Of a stretch of DNA of 64,000 nt, positions 2,519-60,288 are shown piece after piece. A model generated the notes under the pieces. That model was given only the letters and a program-made list of their open reading frames with translations. It searched no databases and was not told the DNA's origin. The stretch covers positions 8,716,501 through 8,780,500 of the forward strand of contig NC_135367.1 of the NCBI RefSeq assembly GCF_051622035.1, read 5' to 3'. The stretch is from Arctopsyche grandis. Lineage: Eukaryota; Arthropoda; Insecta; Trichoptera; Hydropsychidae. The translations under genes were made by a program, and so were the position numbers. Each line of letters starts with the position of its first letter. Within the stretch, counting starts at the first letter, position 1.

Positions 2519-2810
2519 TGTTTAGCCTAAATGCACTTAGAGTCCAGATATAATCCTTGGAAGTAAGTGCATGCACTTAGTTAACCCGATAACAGATATC
2601 CGTTGGTCTAAGTGCAATTCGCTCAATCCGCGGCGTACGTAACACTGTTGTTGCGTAGGGGTGGGTTCAGGCAAGGCTGCTCTAAGGCCTGTCGCAAACA
2701 CAGCCACTTGTGTTCGCCACTTGTGGCTGCCACCGGTGGTTGTGTGTGCGGGCATCCCATCCAAACTCTATGTGAAATGCATTCCGCAGCGTGAATCGAG
2801 TGGCGAGTAA

Positions 2811-3628
2811 AGGTCTGTTCATACCTAGTCAGCACGTACCGACTTCAGAAGGTATCCGGCCGTACGAAAAGTATTCTTTGGTACATTTTGTATGGGTATA
2901 TTCATACCAACCGTCACGTTTACGCCACGGCAGGGTTACAGCAGTAACCGACATTTCCTGTTCATACCTTACAGCAACATCCGTCAACGTATCGTATCCG
3001 TTTTTTGGCCATCGTGGAAATATACACGCGAATTACGTGCCATGAGTCTGTCGCTTTGCTGTTTTGGACCAATTATCGATAGTGACAGTTGACAGCTGTT
3101 CAATCTTTCGACATGGTTTTGGCGCAAATATTTAAAAAAAAATTAATTTTTTACGGAAATATTTAAAAAAATTTTGTCCATCATCCACAACCTCCTTATA
3201 CAGTGTCCAAAACTCTCCTTCGGTTTTTCTATTTTTTAACATGGGATGCACATCAAAATGCCTCCGTGCTTTTTTATTGCCTTCTTGAGCTTCTTCTTCC
3301 AACAAAAGCGCGATTATACATAATTTTTCGTTCGATAAACGTCGAAACATTTTTGTTGACTTGTATTCTGACGCGTAGCTACGAATGCACGTGTATGAAT
3401 TCATATTGCAAGTACTCGCCAATACGACGTAAACAATATTGCGCATCGTCATGGCCTCCGATGTATAAGTAAGCCTATTTTGCCTTGCACTCGGCCAAAT
3501 TGCTGTAAACGTGACGTGACCGCGACGTGTAGGTAGATATGAATAGAAAATATGTAATAAAATTACATATTTGAAACGGAGTCGTGCAGTGCTGAAGCCG
3601 TGCAGTGCTGTTAAGTATGAACAGACCT
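2811..3628 (-). mobile_element. PIF/Harbinger derivative nested in the preceding MITE
   Basis: Inverted ends AGGTCTGTTCATAC (left) and GTATGAACAGACCT (right) are flanked by TAA at 2808-2810 and 3629-3631, an exact 3-bp Harbinger-type duplication. Inside, a minus-strand frame keeps the N-terminal part of a Harbinger transposase (3135-3350). The rest of the gene is missing, so this is an internally deleted, non-autonomous copy. Diverged pieces of the same termini may occur near 27215-27295 and 42510-42535. Confidence 0.8.
3132..3350 (-). pseudogene. Harbinger transposase N-terminal remnant
   Basis: Reading on minus from the ATG at 3350, 72 codons follow to the stop at 3132-3134. A Leu/Glu-rich helix, a basic patch and VHPMLKNRKTEGEF, then LYKEVVDD and FFKYFR, match the start of insect PIF/Harbinger transposases, where a basic run precedes a W/DVHP motif and a Y/F-F-KYFR motif. 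Similarity stops at FFKYFR, where an AT-rich junction follows. The DDE catalytic domain is absent, so it cannot be a working transposase. Confidence 0.7.
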
Positions 3629-3800
3629 TAACACGTGGTTGTGTTTGCGCGCGTCCCATACAAACTATGAGAAATGCATACCGCAGCTTGTGGACTGTGT
3701 GCGACAGGCCTGAGGCCTGTCGCAAACACAGCCACTTGTGTTCGCCACTGGTGGTGGCCACTTTTCGCTTCAAAGTGTAGTGTATTTGTGTAGTTGAAAT

Positions 3801-3899
3801 ATGGACTCCGACTCGGAAGCACTCTTTGCACTGTTGACAATACGAAGACGTCGCATTGTCAACAGCGCGAACCGTCGAACAACAGTCGAAGACCGTTGA
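3801..3899 (+). pseudogene. Harbinger transposase start remnant (33 codons)
   Basis: A short frame beginning MDSDSEALFALL and followed by four consecutive Arg codons resembles the acidic-leucine-basic beginning of PIF/Harbinger transposases. A TGA ends it after 33 codons. It lies in a 555-bp deletion derivative and has no catalytic domain. Confidence 0.4.
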
Positions 3900-4046
3900 G
3901 GGACCAGTGGCGAGTGGCGAGTGGCGAGTGGCGAGTGGCACGTCGCCGTGTTTACGCGGGAACAAAAGCTGCGAGAGCCGGCCACCGCCCTAGCGTGTGG
4001 CGGGTGGTGAGTGGTTGTGTTTGCGCACATCCCATACAAATTCTAT

Positions 4047-4196
4047 GGCTACGTCCACAATACCGATATCTACACCCGATATTTGCGAATTTTTCCATAA
4101 CCATTTCCTAAATAGCAACCACAGGTTGCAATATGGGAACTGGATATGGAAAATTTGAGAATATCGGGTGTGGATATCAGTAGTGTGGACGTAGCC
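4047..4196. mobile_element. 150-bp MITE, TIR GGCTACGTCCAC, TSD TAT
   Basis: The left end GGCTACGTCCACA...CCGATATCTACACCCGATAT is mirrored by ATATCGGGTGTGGATATC...TGTGGACGTAGCC at the right. TAT flanks both sides (4044-4046, 4197-4199). The homologous stretch of the neighbouring element at 3655-3675 reads CATACAAACTATGAGAAATGC with no insertion, which gives an empty site. The short TIRs and 3-bp duplication fit a Harbinger-like or similar DDE superfamily. Confidence 0.85.
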
Positions 4197-4644
4197 TATG
4201 AGAAATGCATTCCGCAGCTTGTGGCTGCCACCGGTGGCGGTGGCAAGTGGCCGTGTGTGCGACAGGCCTAAAGACAGTTAGCGCGGGTGCCATTCCAAAA
4301 ACTTATAAATTATATAATATTTATAATGTAGGTTTGGTGATTATATCCCAAATGTGAATCTCTATCAGGATAATCGCCACTACGAAAATCGCACGAAAAT
4401 TCAAATCGCTCAAAACTGCCAAATCTCGTAAAAAAAGCAATTGCTGAGCAATATTTGGGCAGTTTTCTTTACGGCAATTTTCCTGTGTGACGAATTTTCG
4501 TACGACGGGAAATCCGGGCGAGCGATTTTCGTTTACCATAATGTGAGGAGGGGTGGCATCACAAAAAATGCGCCTCCTATACGATCTATTCCGAACATTT
4601 CACCTTATCATTCAAAATTTTAGGCCTTTTGTATTTAGTTATAC

Positions 4645-5729
4645 TATGGAGGATGAACGAATGAGACGACTGGCATGTTAATGCACGTGTTTATTATATG
4701 ACAGCTGAAGACAGAGTGAGTAGTAGCTCTCCGAACCCAGCCGAGTTGGTTCCCACTCGCAGGAAGGCAACCAAACTCGACCATGTCGTATAAGCGAGCC
4801 GCCACATCACTCCCCCCCCAGCATCAGCGATACCAAAATTACAAAGAAACAAATTTTACAAAAGAAAAAAAATTATTGTTACACAAAGAAAGAGAAAAAA
4901 TTATTGAGTGGGGAGAAAAAAATTGTTGACGTGGGTCATCCGCTGTGTAGGTGTACCGCCCTGAATGGTTGGTAGATTCGAGGGCGGTGACGTCGCGAGC
5001 AGGACGGTGGGTGGTCCGATGGTCGCGCCGATGCGATGCTGCGGCGGCGCCGCTCTTCCGAGGCTGATGTCGGTTGGTGGGGCGGCGGGGGCGGCAGGGG
5101 CATCGATGTGGTTGATGATACTCCGAGCTGGACTGTGAGTCGTTGTGGCTCGTGGAGGTGTTGTAGCGCTACCGCCCGTCTCGGCGTGACGACGCTCGTG
5201 GGGACGGACGGGGCCTTGATGATGATGATGATGATGGTGCTGAGGTGGTGTATGTCTTGTGGTGCTGGATGACCGTTCTATGTGTAGTGGATCGCGCATG
5301 ACTCCACATCCAGCTGTCAAGATCGTCGTCTCATTCGCTCCCCCATTTTTGTAAGCACCTGTCATCGACGTTGTGGCTAGACGTCGGTAGGTAGGTAGGT
5401 AGCCGTGTCTGCTCGTTTATTGTCACCCGCGGGCCGCGGCGTGCTGTGTTGATGGCGATGGGGGCGCGGCGGGTAGCTGGTAGCGGGTAGCCTGGCTCGG
5501 CGAGGCAGGGATGAGCGGCATGTTGAAATTGATCGAGGCTGCGTGGCTCGATGTCGGGGGTCACCAGTATGGAGGATGAACGAATGAGACGACTGGCATG
5601 TTAATGCACGTGTTTATTATATGACAGCTGAAGACAGAGTGAGTAGTAGCTCTCCGAACCCAGCCGAGTTGGTTCCCACTCGCAGGAAGGCAACCAAACT
5701 CGGCCATGTCGTATAAGCGAGCCGCCACA
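4645..5729 (-). mobile_element. Small LTR retrotransposon (TRIM/non-autonomous), recent
   Basis: Two 162-bp direct repeats (4645-4806 and 5568-5729) differ by one base in my reading. On minus the 5' LTR is 5568-5729. It is followed immediately by CTGGTGACCCCCGAC, a plausible tRNA primer-binding site. The other LTR is preceded by a G-rich polypurine tract (complement of the C-run at 4811-4818). ATAC flanks both outer sides (4641-4644, 5730-5733). The ~760-bp interior has minus-strand open frames (4901-5365 and 5331-5564) rich in His, Pro and Thr but no visible reverse transcriptase. It is probably mobilised in trans. Confidence 0.8.
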
Positions 5730-6157
5730 ATACGTATGCGAGGAATGTGTTTTTGTCGATGGGGTAGACTTTTCTGGAACGATTGGCACCGTTCCGCCCG
5801 ATGTAGTTTAATGGCTGCAGGTGTGCTTCGACTGGTTTGTTTCCGCTCGAGTGGTAGGGGTGGAGCTTTCTCGAAGGTTTTAGGAATGTATTCTGCGTCG
5901 CAGTATATGTCTTGATGATGGTGACGAGATTCCCACAGCTTCAATAATATAATATAATAAAATCCTCCATACTGGTGACCCCCGTCACCAGTATGGAGGA
6001 TGAACGAATGAGACGACTGGCATGTTAATGCACGTGTTTATTATATGACAGCTGAAGACAGAGTGAGTAGTAGCTCTCCGAACCCAGCCGAGTTGGTTCC
6101 CACTCGCAGGAAGGCAACCAAACTCGACCATGTCGTATAAGCGAGCCGCCACAATAC
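5730..6157 (-). mobile_element. Third LTR of the same family with a rearranged interior piece
   Basis: A third 162-bp LTR lies at 5992-6153, identical to the first in my reading, and is also followed by ATAC (6154-6157). Just left of it is a perfect 36-bp palindrome (5964-5999) made from the LTR end plus the primer-binding site in both orientations. The 230 bases before that hold a minus-strand open frame (about 5730-5944) unlike the interior of the intact copy; I do not recognise it. It may be a pol end from the autonomous relative. The arrangement suggests template switching or recombination between two copies. Confidence 0.6.
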
Positions 6158-7004
6158 TTTTATTATATCTTAAAGTAATATACATTTTAACTGACGTAAC
6201 TCAATAAAGATTTAAATTATTGACGATTTAATTTTACTTTCGATCTCATTGTTATCTGATATTAGTTATTGTACGTGTTTATATGTCATTACATTACTGC
6301 CATCGTTGCTTTTTTTTTCACACTTTTGCACAGGGAACGTAGACTTTGGCAATTTTGCAAATTTATTTAAATTTTTGTTTAACGGAAGCTATCGATATGT
6401 TTTAAATATTTTTATAGATAGTTACTGTCAAAACTCAAAAACAAAACATTTGCAAATGATGAATATCATTCGAATAAGATTTGAAATATCATAAACAAGT
6501 AAATAATATTTTCATTCAAGTTTCTTATTGACTTTCAAGTATTTTATCAGTTTGCAGTTATTAACTATATTGAAAGGAAAAGTTGTCAAAAGTCATTCCA
6601 TTCTATCTAGACAACCTTTCAGATCTAAAAGCAATCTAAAAACTCATCTATAACACTCATATGAAAGCGAAAGCGCACACGCCTCATACCATGTTCCTTG
6701 ATCGAGATTTTAGTGACTTGCGCGAGATTGCTTTTTGCGGAATAGTCCGTTTACCTATTATTTTATCATTTTTAAATTACTAAAAAAATAAATAAACACG
6801 ACTACTTAAGTCTACTTATTTTTATCTTAACCTATACCTATCTTCTAGTTGTCAGTGGGCTGTGTATTGTTTATTGTTTACATTTCGGACAGTAAACTTC
6901 GAATAAATTTACGAAGCAATCTACCGATATCTATTTAATATTATGCTGTGGTAGCCCTGCATGTTCAATCTCACTGACAGTTCGTAGTTTTGACACTTGA
7001 CAAC
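6158..7004. other. AT-rich intergenic stretch and upstream region of the next gene
   Basis: No coding frame with recognisable content was seen. The last ~100 bases before 7005 are the likely promoter/5' UTR of the Harbinger-derived gene, but I see no clear TATA or Inr. No terminal inverted repeats matching those downstream of that gene were found here. Confidence 0.4.
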
Positions 7005-8288
7005 ATGACTTCGAGTGAAGTCGTACGCGATGCAGCTCTTCTCATATGCGACCTTCTAATCAAAGAATGCAAAAAAATCATTCAGACGAAGAAGAAAATT
7101 AAAAAACGTCGTTGTTGGGTTAAACGACCCATCGCCAACCAGAGTATATTAAAGTCGTCACAATTATTACCCGATGGGACTATCACAGATGATTCAGAAA
7201 CATTTTATAGAACACACTTTCAAATGTCAGAAACACAGTTTGAAAATCTATTAGAAAAAGTTACACCGTTCATTCAAAAACAAGATACTCTCATGAGAAA
7301 TTCTCTTCCATCGCGATTGAAACTGCAAGTCGCCCTCAGCTATCTGGTGGAAGGTTCCAGCTTCAGGGTCCTCGAAAACACGTTCCATGTAGTTCGTTGT
7401 TCCGTTTCAGCTTTTCTACCCGAAGTATATCAAGCCATCTACCACGTGTTACGGGAACATATCAAGGTAAACAATCCCACATATCAATCAACATAATGAC
7501 TTCGTAACCGTCCTTATTAATACATTATTTAAATTCAATTCCAGATTCCAACGACAGAAAGTGAATGGACAGATGTATCAAAAGATTATAATACTGTATG
7601 GAACTTTCCAAATTGTTGTGGTGTCCTTGCTGCGAAACACATTAAGGGTCCTCAAAATTCGTATCAAACTAACAACTCCCGGAACGTACTTCTACTTGCA
7701 ATTGTTGACGCTAAATATAATTTTTTATTCATAGACATAAACAAAAACGAAGGGATCGATGATATTTCACTCTTCACGAAATCCAATATAAATAAAATTC
7801 TACTGAAAAGGGATGAGTTTAATCTACCGATGGACTATTTCTTCGCAGCAGATAAAATGTTCCCGTTGCGGAATAATATAATGAAACCTTATTGTGAAGA
7901 TCAATCTCTCGACCATGGTCAGAACTTATTTAACAGCCGACTCTCGCAAGTTCAACTGGCTGCTGATAATGCTTTCGGATTGTTGACTGCAAGATTCAAA
8001 TTGCTATCGAAGCCCATCAACCTGCATTTGAATCGGGTAGAGATAGTTGTGAAGGCGGCTTGCGCTCTTCACAATTGGATCAATCAAACTTTCGAAGGTG
8101 CCGCTCCGTATATAGATGAGGATATGATTAATGCTGAAATGTGGCAGGCGGGGAAAATCGCACCCGTAAATTGGCATCTAACGTACGGTGGACTTTCCGA
8201 TGCTACGAATGTAGCAGATAATGATTATGATAACGTTGCTAGTAGTATACGCGATGCTTATGCAGAGAAACTCGTTTCTGCGCAATGA
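7005..8288 (+). CDS. HARBI1-like (PIF/Harbinger-derived) protein, catalytic triad degenerate
   Basis: Join 7005-7466 and 7545-8288 (401 aa). The 78-bp intron has GTAAAC...CCAG borders and the frame continues exactly across it. ATG 7005 is the first in-frame Met after TTG. The N-terminus has a helical and a Lys/Arg-rich part, then the FYRTHFQMSETQFENLL and LPSRLKLQVALSYL blocks, then a DDE_4-type domain (about 170-330). Family members read IDGKH at the first catalytic Asp; here it is LAAKH (Ala183). The second is kept (AADKMFPL, Asp257). The third, normally Glu before xAFG, is Asp295 in AADNAFG. The full-length frame, intact splice sites, an AATAAA 30 bases after the stop (8318-8323) and the lack of visible TIRs/TSD argue for a host gene rather than a live element. 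Its role is unknown. In vertebrates HARBI1 works with a MYB-like partner, which I cannot look for here. Confidence 0.85.
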
Positions 8289-8317
8289 ACCATGACGAGA
8301 CTATTCAAATTTGAAAT

Positions 8318-8323
8318 AATAAA
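8318..8323 (+). terminator. Poly(A) signal of the Harbinger-derived gene
   Basis: AATAAA lies 30 bases after the stop codon at 8288, in a suitable position for 3' end formation. It is consistent with a normal host transcription unit. Confidence 0.5.
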
Positions 8324-8924
8324 AATTAGTACCTGGATCAGCTAGCTCTTATACATATTTACATATACATAATAGCTTCGGTGGAATCTTCAATTTTTTA
8401 ATTTCGTTTATATATTATATTTCGTTTGATATGTAATTTAGATATACAACACAAAAACATTACATTATATATACATACATATATTACATAGGTTTGTTTT
8501 GTAAATAAAATGTTCAAATGAATTTATTAAACTGATATTTGATAAGGTATTTTAATTTCTGTAAACTATCTACGAATAGTGTTAAATACATAAGAGTTCA
8601 GAGTTACTGCTTCCGCTCAGAATAAAATGCTAATTCGAATTACTATCGTTCTAAAGCAGATAAGTAAGTATTTTTAATTAAACTTTGTTTAACAATAAAC
8701 GAATTTCTATCTTTTATATTTGCCGTTCATTGATAATAGGATTTCACTTCATTTAAACCAATATAATTAATATATTTTCACTAAATAGAATGGAACTTAT
8801 TTTTTGTTAATTATTTTATAATTTGAGGACTTAATAGATTGAAATAATTAATAAATTTAACCTCCAAATGCAGCTGAAACTATTGGTTTTATCTAAGAGC
8901 AAAAGCAGCCTATTTCCACAGTTT

Positions 8925-9364
8925 CAGTGGTGGATTTATTTCACCCCCCCCAACACACAATATTTTCCAATTAGAACAGAATTTTTTATATTGTATTAAG
9001 TATATGATAAAGCTTCTCTTTGTCAGAAACGTTAAAAAAAATTAAATTAGTAACTTAGTATCAGAATGTCTGTTCGACGAACACTACGAGAAGGTGGAAG
9101 CTAGAATATCCGATTTAAATCGATTGTGAATAGTCGTTCACGAACTAAGAATTTTCTGTTGCATATGCATTTTCGCACAACGCTCCATTGACTTTTATTA
9201 TCATTTGAGATATTTTGCGAAAATACTTAAAGTAAAACACATACACGAAAATACTTAAAGTAATGCACATCAAGTTCAAGGTGAGGATGATGAAATTCTT
9301 GCAATAAGTGCAAATATGGATCTTGTCGGAAATGTGATGCATTTACATAGTAAATCCGTCACTG
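8925..9364. mobile_element. hAT-like element, 440 bp
   Basis: The left end CAGTGGTGGATTTA and right end TAAATCCGTCACTG form inverted repeats of the widespread hAT type (CAGTGNNGGATTTA). The flanking octamers are CACAGTTT (8917-8924) and GATAGTTT (9365-9372), 6 of 8 matching, as expected of an old 8-bp duplication. No intact transposase is visible; it is an internal-deletion derivative. Confidence 0.75.
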
Positions 9365-9904
9365 GATAGTTTATCTTCGCATAAAATGTTACGTTGTACT
9401 CATAATACATACTATCATGTTTTTATAAATAGATTTCAGACTAGAAAATACAAACATCCTAAAATTTCACACGAGCAGGTGTATTTAATTAGTTTTTTAT
9501 GATTATTTCATACTTACGATTCGAAAATCATATTTTTAGAACATCTTCAAGACAAACAATGAGCTTAGTGAAATATAGAAGAGCCTTGTAAAAATAGATA
9601 CGAATCCAAGTATACGTAGTTACGTTAAAAAATTAAAAAATATATATAAGTACAAATTAAAATTAGCAGCTAGAGCAAAGAACAATGATACATATGTATT
9701 TATTTATTTATACTCGTATACGCCCATTTATTTTATTTTCCACGACATCTATGGTCAAACATTGTACATCAAACAAGTATTTTAAGTATTATTTAGGGCC
9801 AATTACAAAAATCGATTTGCAATCATACATATATGAAGAAATTTTCAGCAAAACAAAAATCAGCGAATTCAAGATGTTGTAAACTCGAATTTTGCGAGAA
9901 ATAA

Positions 9905-10010
9905 GACATCGAAGCCAATTTCTTGGAAACGTTTCAATTAAATGAGATAAATTGGCAAACTTTGATAGGAAACGATCGACCTTATGGTCACATACATATC
10001 CAAATTTAAA
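9905..10010 (-). repeat. SINE body fragment
   Basis: Contains the conserved SINE body of this genome (AAATTGGCAAACTTTGATAGGAAACGATCGACC on +, shown here in two overlapping parts in other copies). The tRNA-like head is missing. It is the minus-strand orientation of the family described at 37404-37698. Confidence 0.6.
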
Positions 10011-10204
10011 ATTCTCTCATAGGAAACATTGATAACTTCACACTAATGTTATAAGATTTAACCTCAACTTCAAAGCAAGTATCAATTCCTTCCCAAAACA
10101 ACTTTTTATGTATTTTTGTACTAGCTATTTTTGTTACTATTTTTATTATTTTTGTACTAAATACTGGAGAATTATGGATGAAATACAAGCAGGAGACAAT
10201 GAAT

Positions 10205-10365
10205 AGGATTAAGGTAAAATACAACAATTGCTACCACGCTCTCTTCGGGCTACTAAGAGGATGCAGGGTTTTGTAAAAGGGCACGCGCCTCATTTTGAGA
10301 CCATTCTCATGACGAGAGTGGTCTCCCTACGTCGTCGTGTATTTGTATCATCGTTAATATTTATA
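10205..10365 (+). pseudogene. LINE pol C-terminal remnant (R1/CR1-like), copy 1
   Basis: This stretch is homologous, in opposite orientation, to 19345-19560. Shared landmarks are the CTCTCTTCGGGCTAC block, a GAAGGGCACG-like block and CTCCCTACGT. The other copy translates into a pattern like the extreme C-terminus of R1-type LINE proteins. This copy has frame breaks. Confidence 0.5.
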
Positions 10366-10469
10366 TTCAATATGAAAAAAAAGTAAAAACTACCTACCTA
10401 CGTACATATAAACAATATAAAATACCAATAGAAAAAATAATTAATTAAATAAATTTTCTATGTATCGCC

Positions 10470-10620
10470 TAGAGGAAACATACATAGGTAGCAAACAGTA
10501 TACATATATAGAGGTTTTTTTTTATTATGTGCGTACTTTACGCACGCCGTACTTTAGTACGCCAAGCTTTACCTTACACAGACAGACCGACACACATAAT
10601 AGCGATATTATATATATGAT
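10470..10620. repeat. Dispersed repeat D, copy 1 (CAGACAG...AATAGCGATATTATA end)
   Basis: Shares CCTAGAGGAAACAT, a TATATATAGA stretch, and the tail ACAGACAGACCGACACACATAATAGCGATATTATA (interrupted form) with 39515-39850. Tails of CAGACAGA units followed by AATAGCGATATTAT are often the 3' end of RTE-like LINEs or their SINEs. The assignment is inference. Confidence 0.45.
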
Positions 10621-10940
10621 GTAGGTTTTGTCTGTCTATTTTTCTCATCTCTCTGTACTTTTTCAACCACTGTGGCGCATTAGGGACTCTCGTAATGCCA
10701 CAATGTTCCAAACTCAAACTTAAATTAATTAATTAATTTATTATATGTAGCCATGTATTTAGCCATTATATTTATATTTTTTATCATTCATTTGTATTAT
10801 CTATATATTATTTATAGGGACGATGGAGATTGCACTATTCTACCGATCTGGAATAATAAAAACCATTGGTTGAAATGTAGAAAATAAAATCCAAAGTAAC
10901 TTACAATTGAAAAGCAGCTAGCTGGATTATAATTATTTAT

Positions 10941-11609
10941 CAGAGATTTTTTTAAGTTGCTCCGTTCCAGCTCCGCTCCGACACCTCAGTACTTGCTCCA
11001 ACTCCGATCCGTGCTACGAATAGTTTTAATAGGAATCATATTATTTATTTAATTTATTAATTTTATTCATAGATGATAATTTTTTTTTATTTATAGACAA
11101 TTTATTTATTATTAAAATATTTAATATTTAATATATATCATGAAAATACATACATATGTAGATATAACTATACTACACGATGTGCACATGGTTGTCCCAA
11201 ACTACCATAGTAACAATAATAGAGAAAATAATCAAGAATATAATTTGATCACGATGGAAAAATAAAAAAGAAAGCACGAGCACACATTCCTTTGTACAAA
11301 ACATCAATAAGTAATAAGTAATCAATATAAAATAAAATAATATAACCAAACTACATGATGTGCCACATGTCAAATGATTCCCGGATAATAAATCATCAAA
11401 TATCGAATTGATCATAAATTGAAAAACAAATTTTAAAAAAGCATTCATTTAATTTTTAAATTCTGAAAGAAATTCTAATACATAAAAACAAAATATCGGA
11501 GCAGTGGAGCACTACAAATTTTCGTGCTCCAGCTCCACTCCTGCTCCGTGCAAACACTCGTTGCTCCACTGCTTCGGGCTCCTGCTCCACGCTCCGCTCC
11601 AGATCTCTG
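10941..11609. mobile_element. hAT-like element with GGAGC-rich subterminal repeats, 669 bp
   Basis: Inverted ends CAGAGATTTTT and AGATCTCTG. Flanking octamers TTATTTAT and ATAATTAT match at 6 of 8 positions. Both ends carry degenerate CTCCGCTCCAG/GGAGC tandem motifs (10965-11015 and 11495-11605). The interior is AT-rich with no transposase. A non-autonomous hAT relative is the best reading. Confidence 0.6.
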
Positions 11610-14318: not shown

Positions 14319-14454
14319 AAGTTTTATACCATAAGTTTTTTTATAAGATAGTATTGGTTGAATGATATGGCCTTAGCTGCGGGAGGGGGGGGGGTTATAG
14401 GGGCATTTGTAAATAAAAAAATTATATTTATAAGAATTAATTATGTGTATTTTT

Positions 14455-14660
14455 TGATTTTTAAATGCTTTTTATTATTACGAAATTATGTTCACAATAC
14501 ATCTTATATCTATTTTAATAGCCACTGATCTACTGATCATTTTCTATTTTACAATTTAATTTAATTTGGTTATTAATCACAGTATTATATTATTCTAATG
14601 TTAATCTAAAGCATAATAGGAAAAAGAGCTCAAAAACCTATTTACAATCCTTATAAATGT
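14455..14660 (-). repeat. LINE/retroposon tail F, copy 1
   Basis: One of four copies of a ~190-bp sequence (others 43876-44058, 50583-50775, and reversed at 53026-53217). On minus it ends AATAATAAAAAGCATTTAAAAATCAAAAA, in broken form, i.e. A-rich as for a 3' tail. The copy at 50583 shows a long target duplication, which marks the family as retroposed. Confidence 0.65.
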
Positions 14661-15541: not shown

Positions 15542-15589
15542 ATGGCGTGCAGATCGCCAGCTCAACTAAAACTGGAACTCTCCTTGTGA
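15542..15589 (+). other. Possible upstream ORF before the receptor start
   Basis: ATG 15542 opens a 15-codon frame ending TGA 15587-15589, 34 bases before the AdoR ATG. If these bases are in the mRNA leader it could dampen initiation at 15624. The leader structure is not known. Confidence 0.3.
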
Positions 15590-15623
15590 AAAAAAAAAAG
15601 AGATAAAACGAGCCGAACTCACA

Positions 15624-16062
15624 ATGTCGACGGCCACGCCCGAATTTGGCGACATGCTCTTCTCGGCTGGATCACAGAACATGTCGGACATTGTAGCACC
15701 CATGGAGCTGCAATTCGCCTATACCATCCTGGAGATACTGGTGGCTATAGTAGCCGTCGTCGGCAACGCCATGGTCATCTTGGTGTTCTGGAGAGAGAGG
15801 AGGCTGCGCAGACGTACCAATTACTACATAGTCTCGTTGGCCGTTGCTGATCTTCTCGTGGGTTTGTTGGGTATTCCGTTCGCTATACTGGCTTCTATAG
15901 GCCTGCCCACCAATTTGCACGCTTGTCTCTTCACGGTTTCCGTGCTGGTCGTCCTCTGCACCATCAGCATCTTCTGTCTGGTCGCAGTGTCCGTCGATCG
16001 CTACTGGGCCATATTGCACCCCATGGGATACTCGAGAAACGTGCGGACCAAAACGGCCATCG
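15624..16062 (+). CDS. AdoR: Adenosine receptor (AdoR-like GPCR), coding exon 1
   Basis: Exon 1 of 3 encodes residues 1-146 plus one base of codon 147. ATG 15624 has the good insect context CACAATG. It holds the N-terminus with an NMS glycosylation site (Asn19), TM1 (about 29-55, GNAMVILVFW), TM2 (LAVADLLVG, Asp76), TM3 with the disulphide Cys101, and SVDRYWAILHP (DRY at 125-127). The exon ends at the donor ATCG|GTAAGT (intron from 16063). The assembled protein is 671 aa, a class A receptor coupled to G proteins at the plasma membrane that senses extracellular adenosine. The TM and motif pattern matches adenosine A2-type receptors. Glu37 corresponds to the TM1 Glu of that family. Thr of TM3 position 3.36 is Cys112 here. 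Family assignment is strong; ligand response is inferred. Confidence 0.93.
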
Positions 16063-16066
16063 GTAA

Positions 16067-16622
16067 GTGTGCCCTTATCGTTTTATTGCTGAAATAATAG
16101 ATGTTATGTCCATTGTAAACAATGTTGTTTGAGGTTTATGTGTACGTCCCACGTGTAAAAATGTTCCCACTGAGTATCGAAGTCTGTAACTTGCCAAGGA
16201 ATCTGTTTGATAAATAGTTTTATGCCTAGGTGAATTTTGGCAATGATTTATTTAACCGTTGGTGGAATCTTTCTAAAATGTTTTGGGTAGGGTTTGCTTG
16301 ATGTTTCTAAACAACGAATTATGTAGAATATTGTGTGCCCTTATCGTTTTATTGCTGAAATAATAGATGTTATGTCCATTGTTAATAATGCTGTTTGAGA
16401 TTTATGTACATACGTCGCACGTGTAAAAATCAGCTGAAATGTTCCCACTGAGAATCGAAGTTTGTAACTTGCCATGGAATCTGCTCGATAAATATGTTGT
16501 TTTATGTCTAGGTGAATTTTGGCACTGATTTATTTAACTGTTGGTGGAATCTTTTTAAGAATTTTTGGGTATGGTTTGCTTTAGCCTTGATTTTTATAAA
16601 TAATGAATTATGTAGAATATTG
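16067..16622 (+). repeat. Tandem duplication of ~270-290 bp starting at the exon-1 donor
   Basis: Unit 1 (16067-16332) and unit 2 (16333-16622) are direct repeats. Both begin GTGTGCCCTTATCGTTTTAT and end GAATTATGTAGAATATT, with substitutions and small indels between. The unit starts at the G of GTAAGT's fifth base, so the duplication abuts but does not copy the full splice donor. Confidence 0.9.
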
Positions 16623-43875: not shown

Positions 43876-44058
43876 GTTTTTTGATTTTTAAATGCTTTTT
43901 ATTATTACTAAATTATGTTCACAATACATCTTATATCTATTTTAATAGCTATTGATCTACTGATCATTTTCTATTTTACAATTTTAATTTAATTTTGTTA
44001 GTAATCATAGTATTATATTATTCTAATGTTAATGTAAAGCATAATAGTAAAAAGAGCT
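43876..44058 (-). repeat. LINE/retroposon tail F, copy 2
   Basis: Nearly the same sequence as 14455-14640, ending at AAAAAGAGCTC. Confidence 0.65.
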
Positions 44059-44227
44059 CCTGTTTACTTTGTTAGTAATATACAATATACATATGTATAC
44101 GAGACTAAAATTTTGATGCAGAACATACCTATATACATAGATAGTATCGTTCCTATCCGATCATTGAACTGTATTGATCAAAATAATGCCCTAATTTAAA
44201 TTATTGTAATGATAAGAACACACTCAA

Positions 44228-50454: not shown

Positions 50455-51085
50455 TAAAATCGATGCAAATGACGTATTGTGGGTGAGGTTATTTGAATTC
50501 GTTAGTTTTCATTATTAAATGTGGCAATTTCGAATTAATAAATTCACTGTGAACACAGACCAACCAAATCGAAATAAATTGATTTTGAAATGCTTTTTAT
50601 TATTAATAAATTATGTTTACAATACACTTTATATCTATTTCAATAGCTACTGATCTACCGATCAGTTTCTATTTTACAATTTTAATTTAATTTTGTTAGT
50701 AATCATAGTATTATATTATTCTAATGTTAATGTACAGCATAATAGGAAAAAGACCTCAAAAACCTATTTTAAATCAATCGAATTAAATGCAATCAAAGGG
50801 TTGTGCTAATTATGATCCCAACTTTCAAATGGTCTAAATTTTAAATAAATAAATATAATTGGTTAAAAATAAAAAATGAAATTTATGTATTTATTATTAT
50901 TCACCTGAGATGTATTTTTAATTATTTACGATTCAATCTAGGTTAAAGTTTTTAGCCACATACAGTTATGTAATCCACGAAAAAAAAAATTTCATTTACA
51001 GGTAAATACCGAAATTCCGGTCATATGAAAAATCATTCACCGCTTACCAGTTTATGAAATTTGACGGTAAATTGCAATCCCTAGT
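50455..51085. repeat. Element I, copy 2, interrupted by retroposon F
   Basis: Same blocks as 44455-44965. It is split between AATCGAAATAAAT and ATCGAATTAAATG by the F copy. Removing F restores collinearity with copy 1 (CAAATCGTAATAAATGCGATC). Confidence 0.6.
50583..50775 (-). mobile_element. LINE/retroposon tail F, copy 3, with target duplication
   Basis: Matches copies at 14455, 43876 and 53026. The flanks ATCGAAATAAAT and ATCGAATTAAAT form a 12-bp duplication (one mismatch) of element I sequence, as made by target-primed reverse transcription. Confidence 0.75.
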
Positions 51086-51555: not shown

Positions 51556-53025
51556 TTTCTCATGAATCATGAGTAAACTCAATCTAAAAAAAAATAAAGT
51601 AAAATAATAATCTTAATATAATAATAAATATAATAATCTAAAGTAAAATATTTCAATGTAAAAAAAAATTTTTGGTAAGTGGGAAAAATAAAACAAATTT
51701 TTACCATTTACAAGGTTTTTTTATTAAATTAACCGCGGGTAGTAGGTTGCATATTGACGTTCAGACTACATATATGCATATGAATGTACATATGTTATAC
51801 TACAAAATTTCCAGTTTCAAAGTTCAGTTCGATTTTATACTTGTATTCCTCACTTTCACTTGCCTGGGCAAGGTCGGAAAAAACAGCAAGTAATCTATGT
51901 ATGTATAGGTACATACATACATACATTTATATGCATACAAATTTGTATTTATTTAAAATGCAAATCTACACTGTTCAATTAAGAAGCACAAATTTTATAG
52001 AACTTATACCGTAGACTATAAAATTTTCCGAATAACAATATTGGCATTTTTTCAATGACATGTAAACATCCACATAAAGTGGTTAACCGAAGATAATAAT
52101 TCCCAGTGTTTATAATACACACAATAAGCATTCTAAATGTATCTTCAGCTTCAACCAAATGTCCCTTAACGCCACGCATTAAAATTTTTAATAACATTGC
52201 TTTTAAGCGAGGAAACGTTGCATAAAAGTCGCACTCGGTTGAAGCTCGATGCACCGTCAAATTCAGGTATTCGCAGTAGTATAATTGGAAAAGCTCTAAG
52301 CTGCAACTTGAATAATGATCGCTGCACTCCATTAGTTTTTGCAGTGGATTTCTAGCTCGTGGGGCATTTTAATAAAATTAAAACGCGAATTACCGTTCGA
52401 TTCTGCGGCTCAGTTTTCATTAACATTCTCGACTGGAATCAAATGGCCGGGAAAATCGTGCGCGGTGAAAATAGACCCCCACTGCAACAGGTGACCTCTC
52501 TGAAAACCACATAGTATTTGGAACGACAAATCTATTTGTGTAAGTTTACATTGACAATGAAATAAAAAATCAAGGCTGATAAAATCTCCAGCAAACAACG
52601 TGACGTCAGACAAGAGAAATGTTAGAGCTTTTGCCGTGGTTGGAAATACTTATTGTAAACACAAATAGCTAACCATGCAGATTGTAGATGGCCAAAATAT
52701 ACATAGATTTCTAAAAATATTCCTACAATTGTATTACATTCTGTTTACATTCTATGTAACTTAAATTGCCCCATACACAAGTTTTATTTTATTTTATTTT
52801 TATTTTTATTTATTCAATTAACAAATTGCATCCAAAACGACGAGTGTACTATACATATTAAGAAACATATCAAATTACATAAAATACACAACCACTTTAT
52901 ACTTTTTACATTTTTGTAGACGACATCTATAGTGAAATATCGCAAATAACATTGCAAACATTTTTAATTACAATATATAATATGGTCAATGAATATTTTA
53001 TACAGTACGAATTAAGGATTGTAAA

Positions 53026-53217
53026 TAGGTTTTTGAGCTCTTTTTACTATTATGCTTTACATTAACATTAGAATAATATAATACTATGATAACTAACAAA
53101 ATTAAATTAAAATTGTAAAATAGAAAATGATCAGTAGATCAGTAGCTATTAAAATAGATATATAAGATGTATTGTGAACATAATTTCGTAATAATAAAAA
53201 GCATTTAAAAATCAAAA
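53026..53217 (+). repeat. LINE/retroposon tail F, copy 4 (opposite orientation)
   Basis: Reads AATAGGTTTTTGAGCTC at the start and AAAAGCATTTAAAAATCAAAAAA at the A-rich end, the reverse of the other three. Confidence 0.65.
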
Positions 53218-53252
53218 AAAATACAGTACGAATATTTTTGTACATAAATCAT

Positions 53253-58838: not shown

Positions 58839-58923
58839 GTAAAATATTAATACAAAGTAATGTTTTGAAACAGAATATACACAGAAAAACAGTAATTGAT
58901 ATATGTATGTATATACGTTTCAG

Positions 58924-60288
58924 CTCCGTCAAATAGTAACGATGAATCCAGGGAGGTTTCGTGGATCTGGCAGTCAAAATGGAGGAACTATGTTGAGAGT
59001 GCTAGGCGCTGCCCAAAAACGAGAAGTCAAAGCTACACAAAACTTATCCATAATTGTTTTATTCTTCATAATTTGTTGGATTCCACTATACACAATCAAT
59101 TGTGTAAAAGCTTTCTGTCCGGATTGTTACATTGCAGCATCATGGACCGACTTTTGTATCATTCTATCCCACTTGAACTCGGCTGTAAACCCATTGTTGT
59201 ATGCATACCATTTGAAAGATTTCAGAGCTGCACTGAAAAGTTTGATTTACAAAATGTTCGGCTTGAAAGAAACCAATCCTATAAACGACACATATTATAA
59301 ACCGTCAATAATTTCACAGAATCATCGCAGACAGTCGAATATGGAGAAACGTCCCAGTATTCTTCATGGAAGCCAGCCAAAAGTTTATGTAGATTCTCCT
59401 ATATGGCTCCGGCAGAAAGCTGCCGAGATGTCCAATCCACCAACAAGTGCTCCGTCGATTTCCGGTGCTGCTTCTCCAGCTTCTGTACATTCGGATGCCA
59501 TGCTCACTCACACTGTAATGCCCAACACTCCTGAATGCAATCAAAACCGTGAAATTTGGATGATATCAGAAGTGCCATCCATGTCTGATGAGCGTGAAGT
59601 GTCTGAAGAGTGTACTGAAGTATTTTCACAAAAACGTTCATTGAAACCTACTTTAGAAACTTTATCTGATGATTATGATGACGACGATGAAGTTTTTCTA
59701 CCGTCTACAAACAGTGCTTTTGCCGTTATTCAATATGACTTCAAAAACGACGATACATATTCAACGGAGCTTCCTTTCAGAGAAAAACGCAAAAGCAGCA
59801 ATACTTTCAGCGATGATTCGGAAGGGTTTTCGGACATAATCGTTAGCAGTGCAAAATGCAATAGTGAATCGAGAAACAATCACAAAAACGATATTTATGA
59901 ACAAGACAGATACTCTCTTTGCTCACCTATCCATAAAATATTCGTCGTTGAGAACGATAATACCGAAATGTTTAGAAACTCCCCTAATTTAAGCCACGTT
60001 TCCAAGATTGCCAAAGAAAACAGACTGGAGCGGAAACATTCAAGTTCAATTAGTTCAGATTATTCGTGTAGTCCCACTAAATTAAGTCCTTTAAAAATAG
60101 TCGGTGATTTTTTATTCAATCAACCGTCAAAGAAATGTCCTAGTCAAAATAGAAACTGTAAAACTAAGAGAAAAGCTAAATACGTTTTGCCAAAACAAAG
60201 TAATGCTGAAGTTTCGCAGTATCTAGATTTACAAAAGAATGGTGTTATTCAAAGTTACAGGGCCGCGGAGAGCACCGAAAACAGATAA
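58924..60288 (+). CDS. AdoR: Adenosine receptor, coding exon 3 and long C-tail
   Basis: The 85-bp intron 58839-58923 ends ACGTTTCAG. The exon encodes residues 218-671. Intracellular loop 3 (KREVKATQNLS), TM6 with FIICWIPLYTINC (CWxP; Asn276 equals the purine-binding Asn), and TM7 with LSHLNSAVNPLLYAY (His300, NPxxY 306-310) are classic for adenosine receptors. After the HLKDFR helix-8 start comes a ~350-residue tail rich in Ser, Pro and acidic residues (a DDYDDDDE patch near 300 codons into the exon). Insect AdoR proteins are known for long tails. TAA is at 60286-60288. The tail likely holds phosphorylation/arrestin sites (inference). Confidence 0.93.
   Translation, partial: LRQIVTMNPGRFRGSGSQNGGTMLRVLGAAQKREVKATQNLSIIVLFFIICWIPLYTINCVKAFCPDCYIAASWTDFCIILSHLNSAVNPLLYAYHLKDFRAALKSLIYKMFGLKETNPINDTYYKPSIISQNHRRQSNMEKRPSILHGSQPKVYVDSPIWLRQKAAEMSNPPTSAPSISGAASPASVHSDAMLTHTVMPNTPECNQNREIWMISEVPSMSDEREVSEECTEVFSQKRSLKPTLETLSDDYDDDDEVFLPSTNSAFAVIQYDFKNDDTYSTELPFREKRKSSNTFSDDSEGFSDIIVSSAKCNSESRNNHKNDIYEQDRYSLCSPIHKIFVVENDNTEMFRNSPNLSHVSKIAKENRLERKHSSSISSDYSCSPTKLSPLKIVGDFLFNQPSKKCPSQNRNCKTKRKAKYVLPKQSNAEVSQYLDLQKNGVIQSYRAAESTENR

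Follow-up and report, generated by a model that had tools for sequence, protein, structure and literature searches.

An intact PIF/Harbinger transposase-family gene with an altered catalytic triad upstream of a presumed adenosine receptor gene in Arctopsyche grandis

The DNA analyzed in this study, a 64-kb stretch of the Arctopsyche grandis genome (hereafter the window), contains a gene of the PIF/Harbinger transposase family that has an open reading frame and changed catalytic residues. Has the host retained this gene as an inactive transposase, or is it a mobile element that is still active, recently immobilized or decaying? We favor the first reading, with a probability of roughly 0.6. The host use of the protein is inferred, and the gene would then be single-copy, under selection, and nuclear in its role, with its product binding DNA or chromatin.

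Gene structure and family assignment

The spliced frame (7005-7466 plus 7545-8288, + strand) is unbroken over 401 codons. The sequence-only reading had described an intact two-exon frame with splice signals and a poly(A) signal for this HARBI1-like gene, and this description was borne out. The features of the gene are as follows.

7005-7466, + strand: exon 1, residues 1-154, with a basic N-terminus and a helical (HTH-like) region (translation; homology to the N-terminal parts of the comparators L001 and L002)
7068-7130, + strand: basic, NLS-like stretch, residues 22-42, with 11 K/R in 20 (composition count)
7467-7544, + strand: 78-bp phase 0 intron, with donor GT from 7467 and acceptor AG up to 7544 (splice signals; comparator alignment over the junction)
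7545-8288, + strand: exon 2, residues 155-401 and stop codon, with the DDE_Tnp_4 domain (Pfam)
8318-8323, + strand: AATAAA, the first 3' of the stop codon
8504-8509, + strand: AATAAA, the second

The stop-free runs that hold the exons are 172 codons (exon 1) and 251 codons (exon 2) long. In 40 dinucleotide-resampled windows, the longest run was 188 codons (median 135); therefore, the exon 2 run exceeds chance and the exon 1 run alone does not. The predicted intron is supported by the protein alignment over the splice junction, where L002 shows no gap and L001 a single additional residue. Both comparators are uninterrupted and intronless at this site.

The window protein is assigned from its sequence to the PIF/Harbinger transposase family by a Pfam DDE_Tnp_4 match over residues 193-331 (E = 7.2e-19; 68.4 bits against a cut-off of 24.8). 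In the 158-position profile, the match begins only at position 20 and leaves the segment of the first catalytic Asp outside the Pfam alignment; a canonical PIF string aligned with DDE_Tnp_4 from profile position 1. NCBIfam gave weak matches only (E = 0.11 and 0.13), Rfam none at the gathering score, and the PDB sequence search a single chance-level match to an LSm4 chain (E = 0.54), with none for alignment A3. The exon 2 protein had no match in plasmids, and no relatives were found in viral contigs using either the window protein or alignment A1 (188 pattern matches, none confirmed).

Comparators were obtained from a prokaryote genome collection, which was searched using an alignment whose seeds were strings of PIF motifs. 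Two of the 37 pattern matches, L001 and L002, were confirmed as PIF-type transposases. L001 has a complete D-D-E triad, and the frame of L002 is broken after the first-Asp region. The window protein is 28% identical to L001 over 286 columns (E = 4e-37) and 30% identical to L002 over 215 columns (E = 8e-25), both E-values applying to a two-sequence set. The two frames (L001, 2600-3139; L002, 3297-3667) lie in contigs filed as bacterial MAGs, which are probably eukaryotic contamination.

Exon 1 gave a moderate AF2 model with helices at residues 103-116, 120-127, and 131-153 and block-mean pLDDT values of 58-82 from residue 101 onward; the model of exon 2, the catalytic domain, had a pLDDT of 33. 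A Foldseek search with the exon 1 model returned 94 matches with E ≤ 10 and none with E ≤ 0.001, and its HTH-like matches fall in the range that the tool rates as possibly meaningless. Judged by composition, residues 22-42 may serve as an NLS.

The catalytic site

The codons at the three triad positions were located by alignment and read directly.

7629-7631, + strand: GCT, Ala183, at the position of the first catalytic Asp in both comparators
7851-7853, + strand: GAT, Asp257, the second catalytic position, kept relative to L001
7965-7967, + strand: GAT, Asp295, at the position of the catalytic Glu in L001

The assignment of A183, D257, and D295 to the triad, proposed earlier from the sequence, agrees with the alignment. 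Ala183 (in L-A-A-K-H) stands opposite the Asp of I/L-D-G-K-H in both L001 and L002. Asp257 aligns with the second Asp of L001 and Asp295 with its Glu; these two are judged against L001, the sole comparator that reaches both, because the L002 frame ends before them. An active transposase is expected to carry a complete D-D-E/D triad, and the window protein has Ala183 in place of the first Asp.

The two replacements do not weigh equally. According to the consulted passage on the rice Ping transposase, a single Asp-to-Ala change in the DDE domain reduced excision in yeast by approximately 150-fold (PMC2836001); that passage does not state which Asp of the triad was changed. In view of this effect, nuclease activity of the window protein appears unlikely from its residues. 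PMC2213677, as excerpted, describes plant PIF/Harbinger elements whose transposases have a DDD triad; therefore, Glu-to-Asp alone is weak evidence, and Glu295Asp by itself was discarded as proof of inactivity. Thus, of the A-D-D triad read earlier as a loss, the Asp-to-Ala part is decisive and the Glu-to-Asp part is not. The identity of the residues, together with the Ping result, gives good support to the claim that catalysis has been lost.

Changes extend beyond the triad. The window protein keeps 40 of the 76 columns that are identical in L001 and L002. Residues 176-235 contribute 13 of these (from 31 columns) and the preceding residues 27 (from 45), and the two regions do not differ significantly (Fisher P = 0.16). 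Among the lost columns are the Gly that follows the first Asp, residues in the SGS and NYK loop, and the Gly and Arg of a later G-x-x-GR stretch, and VQLA faces the RARR that precedes the Glu in L001. Past residue 186, the loop is unlike that of both comparators. This dissimilarity, and the DDD triads of the superfamily (PMC2213677, as excerpted), could suit a transposase that belongs to a divergent lineage and is still active, with another acidic residue in use and the site not dead. We consider this highly improbable: K185-H186 are in register with D-G-K-H, LAAKH contains neither Asp nor Glu, and no PIF-like TIRs were found in the scanned flanks.

Element ends, copies, and neutral decay

Active PIF/Harbinger elements have TIRs with a 3-bp TWA duplication, as stated in the part of PMC4482050 that was available. 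The segments 4501-7004 and 8301-11000 were scanned against each other for paired 14-mers that differ at two positions or fewer and have a 3-bp duplication. Five pairs were found, against a mean of 0.65 and a maximum of 2 in 20 resampled flanks. This excess nominally speaks against domestication, although all five are A/T-rich runs (0-2 G/C in 14) and none has a TWA duplication. The scanned flanks therefore hold no PIF-like TIR/TSD pair of the kind that marks an active element; shorter or more diverged ends would escape the scan. This absence fits domestication, and within the same limits the gene has the intact coding region without TIR/TSD that characterizes domesticated insect PIF genes. A self-BLAST search (E = 1e-6) found no repeat partner of 6158-9868 in the window.

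The region upstream of the gene contains nested non-autonomous elements (2686-4268) with TIRs and 3-bp flanking duplications, all with PIF-like ends.

2686-4268: outer element, TIR GGCCTGTCGC, TAA on both sides
2811-3628: second element, TIR AGGTCTGTTCATAC, TAA on both sides
4047-4196: third element, TIR GGCTACGTCC, TAT (not TWA) on both sides

The sequence-only reading had called these elements Harbinger-derived MITEs whose termini the gene product might recognize. The TIRs and duplications hold, and the Harbinger label comes from the ends, with no family match. Recognition found no support: allowing three mismatches for GGCCTGTCGC and AGGTCTGTTCATAC and two for GGCTACGTCC, all termini lie at or before 4268 and none near the gene. 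For the same reason, these ends were rejected as the gene's own. The second element contains a 72-aa open frame (3135-3350, − strand), which we take to resemble the start of a PIF transposase; a BLAST comparison of this fragment with the gene and with L001 gave no match, and the ORF containing it had no Pfam match.

The upstream elements indicate that the lineage was invaded. They are relevant to the main alternative, that the gene is a recently immobilized or trans-mobilized PIF copy whose frame is too young to have decayed, A183 being either the inactivating lesion or a change copied along by an active relative. We regard this as possible but doubtful. In its favor are the TAA-flanked elements approximately 2.7 kb or more upstream, whose ends are PIF-like, whereas the scanned flanks lack a PIF-like TIR/TSD around the gene, the window lacks a second copy, and several motifs, not one, have been lost relative to the comparators.

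A simulation of neutral decay also argues against a recent copy. This CDS was mutated in 400 runs at each of seven divergences. The probability of no stop codon was 0.295 at 2% divergence and 0.05 at 5%, and none of the 400 runs was free of stops at 10%; at these divergences, at least two of the three catalytic codons were changed with probabilities of 0.0025, 0.03, and 0.14, respectively. The largest product of the two probabilities was approximately 0.0015, a value that assumes independence and applies to a case picked for its changed residues. Indels lay outside the simulation and were reckoned apart at an assumed 0.1 per substitution. An open frame and two changed catalytic codons are thus seldom found together under simulated neutral decay. 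A decaying pseudogene whose frame is open by chance is most improbable in our judgment, as the simulated probability of escaping a stop is down to 0.05 once divergence reaches 5%, and the frame, the splice sites, and a large number of conserved residues are intact.

The window is AT-rich (33% G+C). It contains two rhodopsin-type receptor frames (Pfam 7tm_1; 15570-16094 and 58900-60285), presumably of the insect adenosine receptor (AdoR); the transposase gene lies approximately 7.3 kb before the first, on the shared strand. A tandem duplication of approximately 270-290 bp (16067-16622, 84% identical) starts from the end of the first receptor frame. Repeats of approximately 200 bp, 90-97% identical, occur once before the receptor frames (14444-14653) and three times between them (43877-44059, 50579-50775, and 53013-53225). 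The 383-bp segment 43323-43705 is 89% identical to its own reverse complement and is possibly a foldback element. Upstream of the gene, three direct copies (4645-4806, 5560-5733, and 5984-6157) are 99-100% identical, and an 18-bp inverted repeat surrounds CCCC at 5962-6001 (TGGTGACCCCC); we assume that the copies are perhaps pieces of Ty3/gypsy LTRs adjoining a tRNA-Trp-like primer site. An open frame at 1994-2521 (− strand) has no Pfam match and, in our view, resembles the end of a jockey-like reverse transcriptase.

Relation to known domesticated transposases

Markova et al. 2022 (PMC9710019, as excerpted) describe PIF transposases that were domesticated in Drosophila, Anopheles, Lepidoptera, and cockroaches. 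The insect PIF-like genes named there (DPLG1-7, APLG1-2, LPLG1-2, and BPLG1-2) have stated sizes of 356-428 aa and, like the window gene, an intact PIF-derived frame without TIR/TSD; BPLG1 (378-401 aa) and BPLG2 (394-395 aa) also share its two exons. They include four co-domestications with a MADF gene, and the excerpt lists no domestication in the other orders screened, Hymenoptera among them. The main text of PMC9710019 does not contain the words DDE and triad. The listed genes carry orthologues, synteny, and dN/dS in the portion of that article we cite, whereas the window gene is known here from one sequence.

A broken triad has a precedent in Arabidopsis ALP1, a domesticated PIF transposase with DGA in place of DDE (PMC4671723, in the extract used). 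ALP1 is found in a plant and associates with PRC2; its triad is broken at other positions than that of the window gene. Vertebrate HARBI1 (with NAIF1), also domesticated, is of the same superfamily as the window gene, as given in the excerpt of PMC9710019. HARBI1 is paired with NAIF1, whereas no MADF/Myb partner of the window gene was seen in the window. The triad of HARBI1 is intact. A literature search on HARBI1, AdoR, and adenosine receptor had no HARBI1 among the matches listed.

An active PIF/Harbinger element is also expected to carry a second ORF with a Myb/SANT/MADF domain. A MADF-like motif had no hits in the six frames of the window, and Pfam MADF was absent from the 24 of 59 ORFs tested besides the gene; short or spliced exons could escape both searches. 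In the extracts cited, PIF transposases are without an obvious binding domain (PMC2836001), and DNA binding is demonstrated only for the Myb-like partner (PMC9710019); DNA binding by PIF transposases themselves is therefore not established.

We propose that a PIF/Harbinger gene may have lost its nuclease site and element ends and retained its frame, intron, and N-terminal helices, the frame being retained because the host would use the protein. In the most likely mode, the protein would enter the nucleus via its own basic NLS-like stretch, a MADF/Myb partner encoded elsewhere, or both, and, without cutting, would associate there with DNA or chromatin as a factor comparable to ALP1-ALP2, which modulate PRC2 in Arabidopsis. 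More tentatively, this would be an undescribed, independent domestication upstream of an insect adenosine receptor gene. Loss of the first Asp would have switched off the nuclease, and the protein would have been kept to bind chromatin or DNA without cutting, independently of any linked MADF partner.

Given the insect PIF domestications (PMC9710019) and the broken triad of ALP1 (PMC4671723), as far as the excerpts of both describe them, the window gene is a candidate for one more case of a known kind, or for an orthologue of a listed insect PIF-like gene. As things stand, it would not surprise specialists. If the domestication reading is true, the gene would be a further instance of PIF transposases being recruited repeatedly in insects, with the loss of the nuclease visible in the sequence, and would be of use in asking whether it is cutting or binding that hosts retain.
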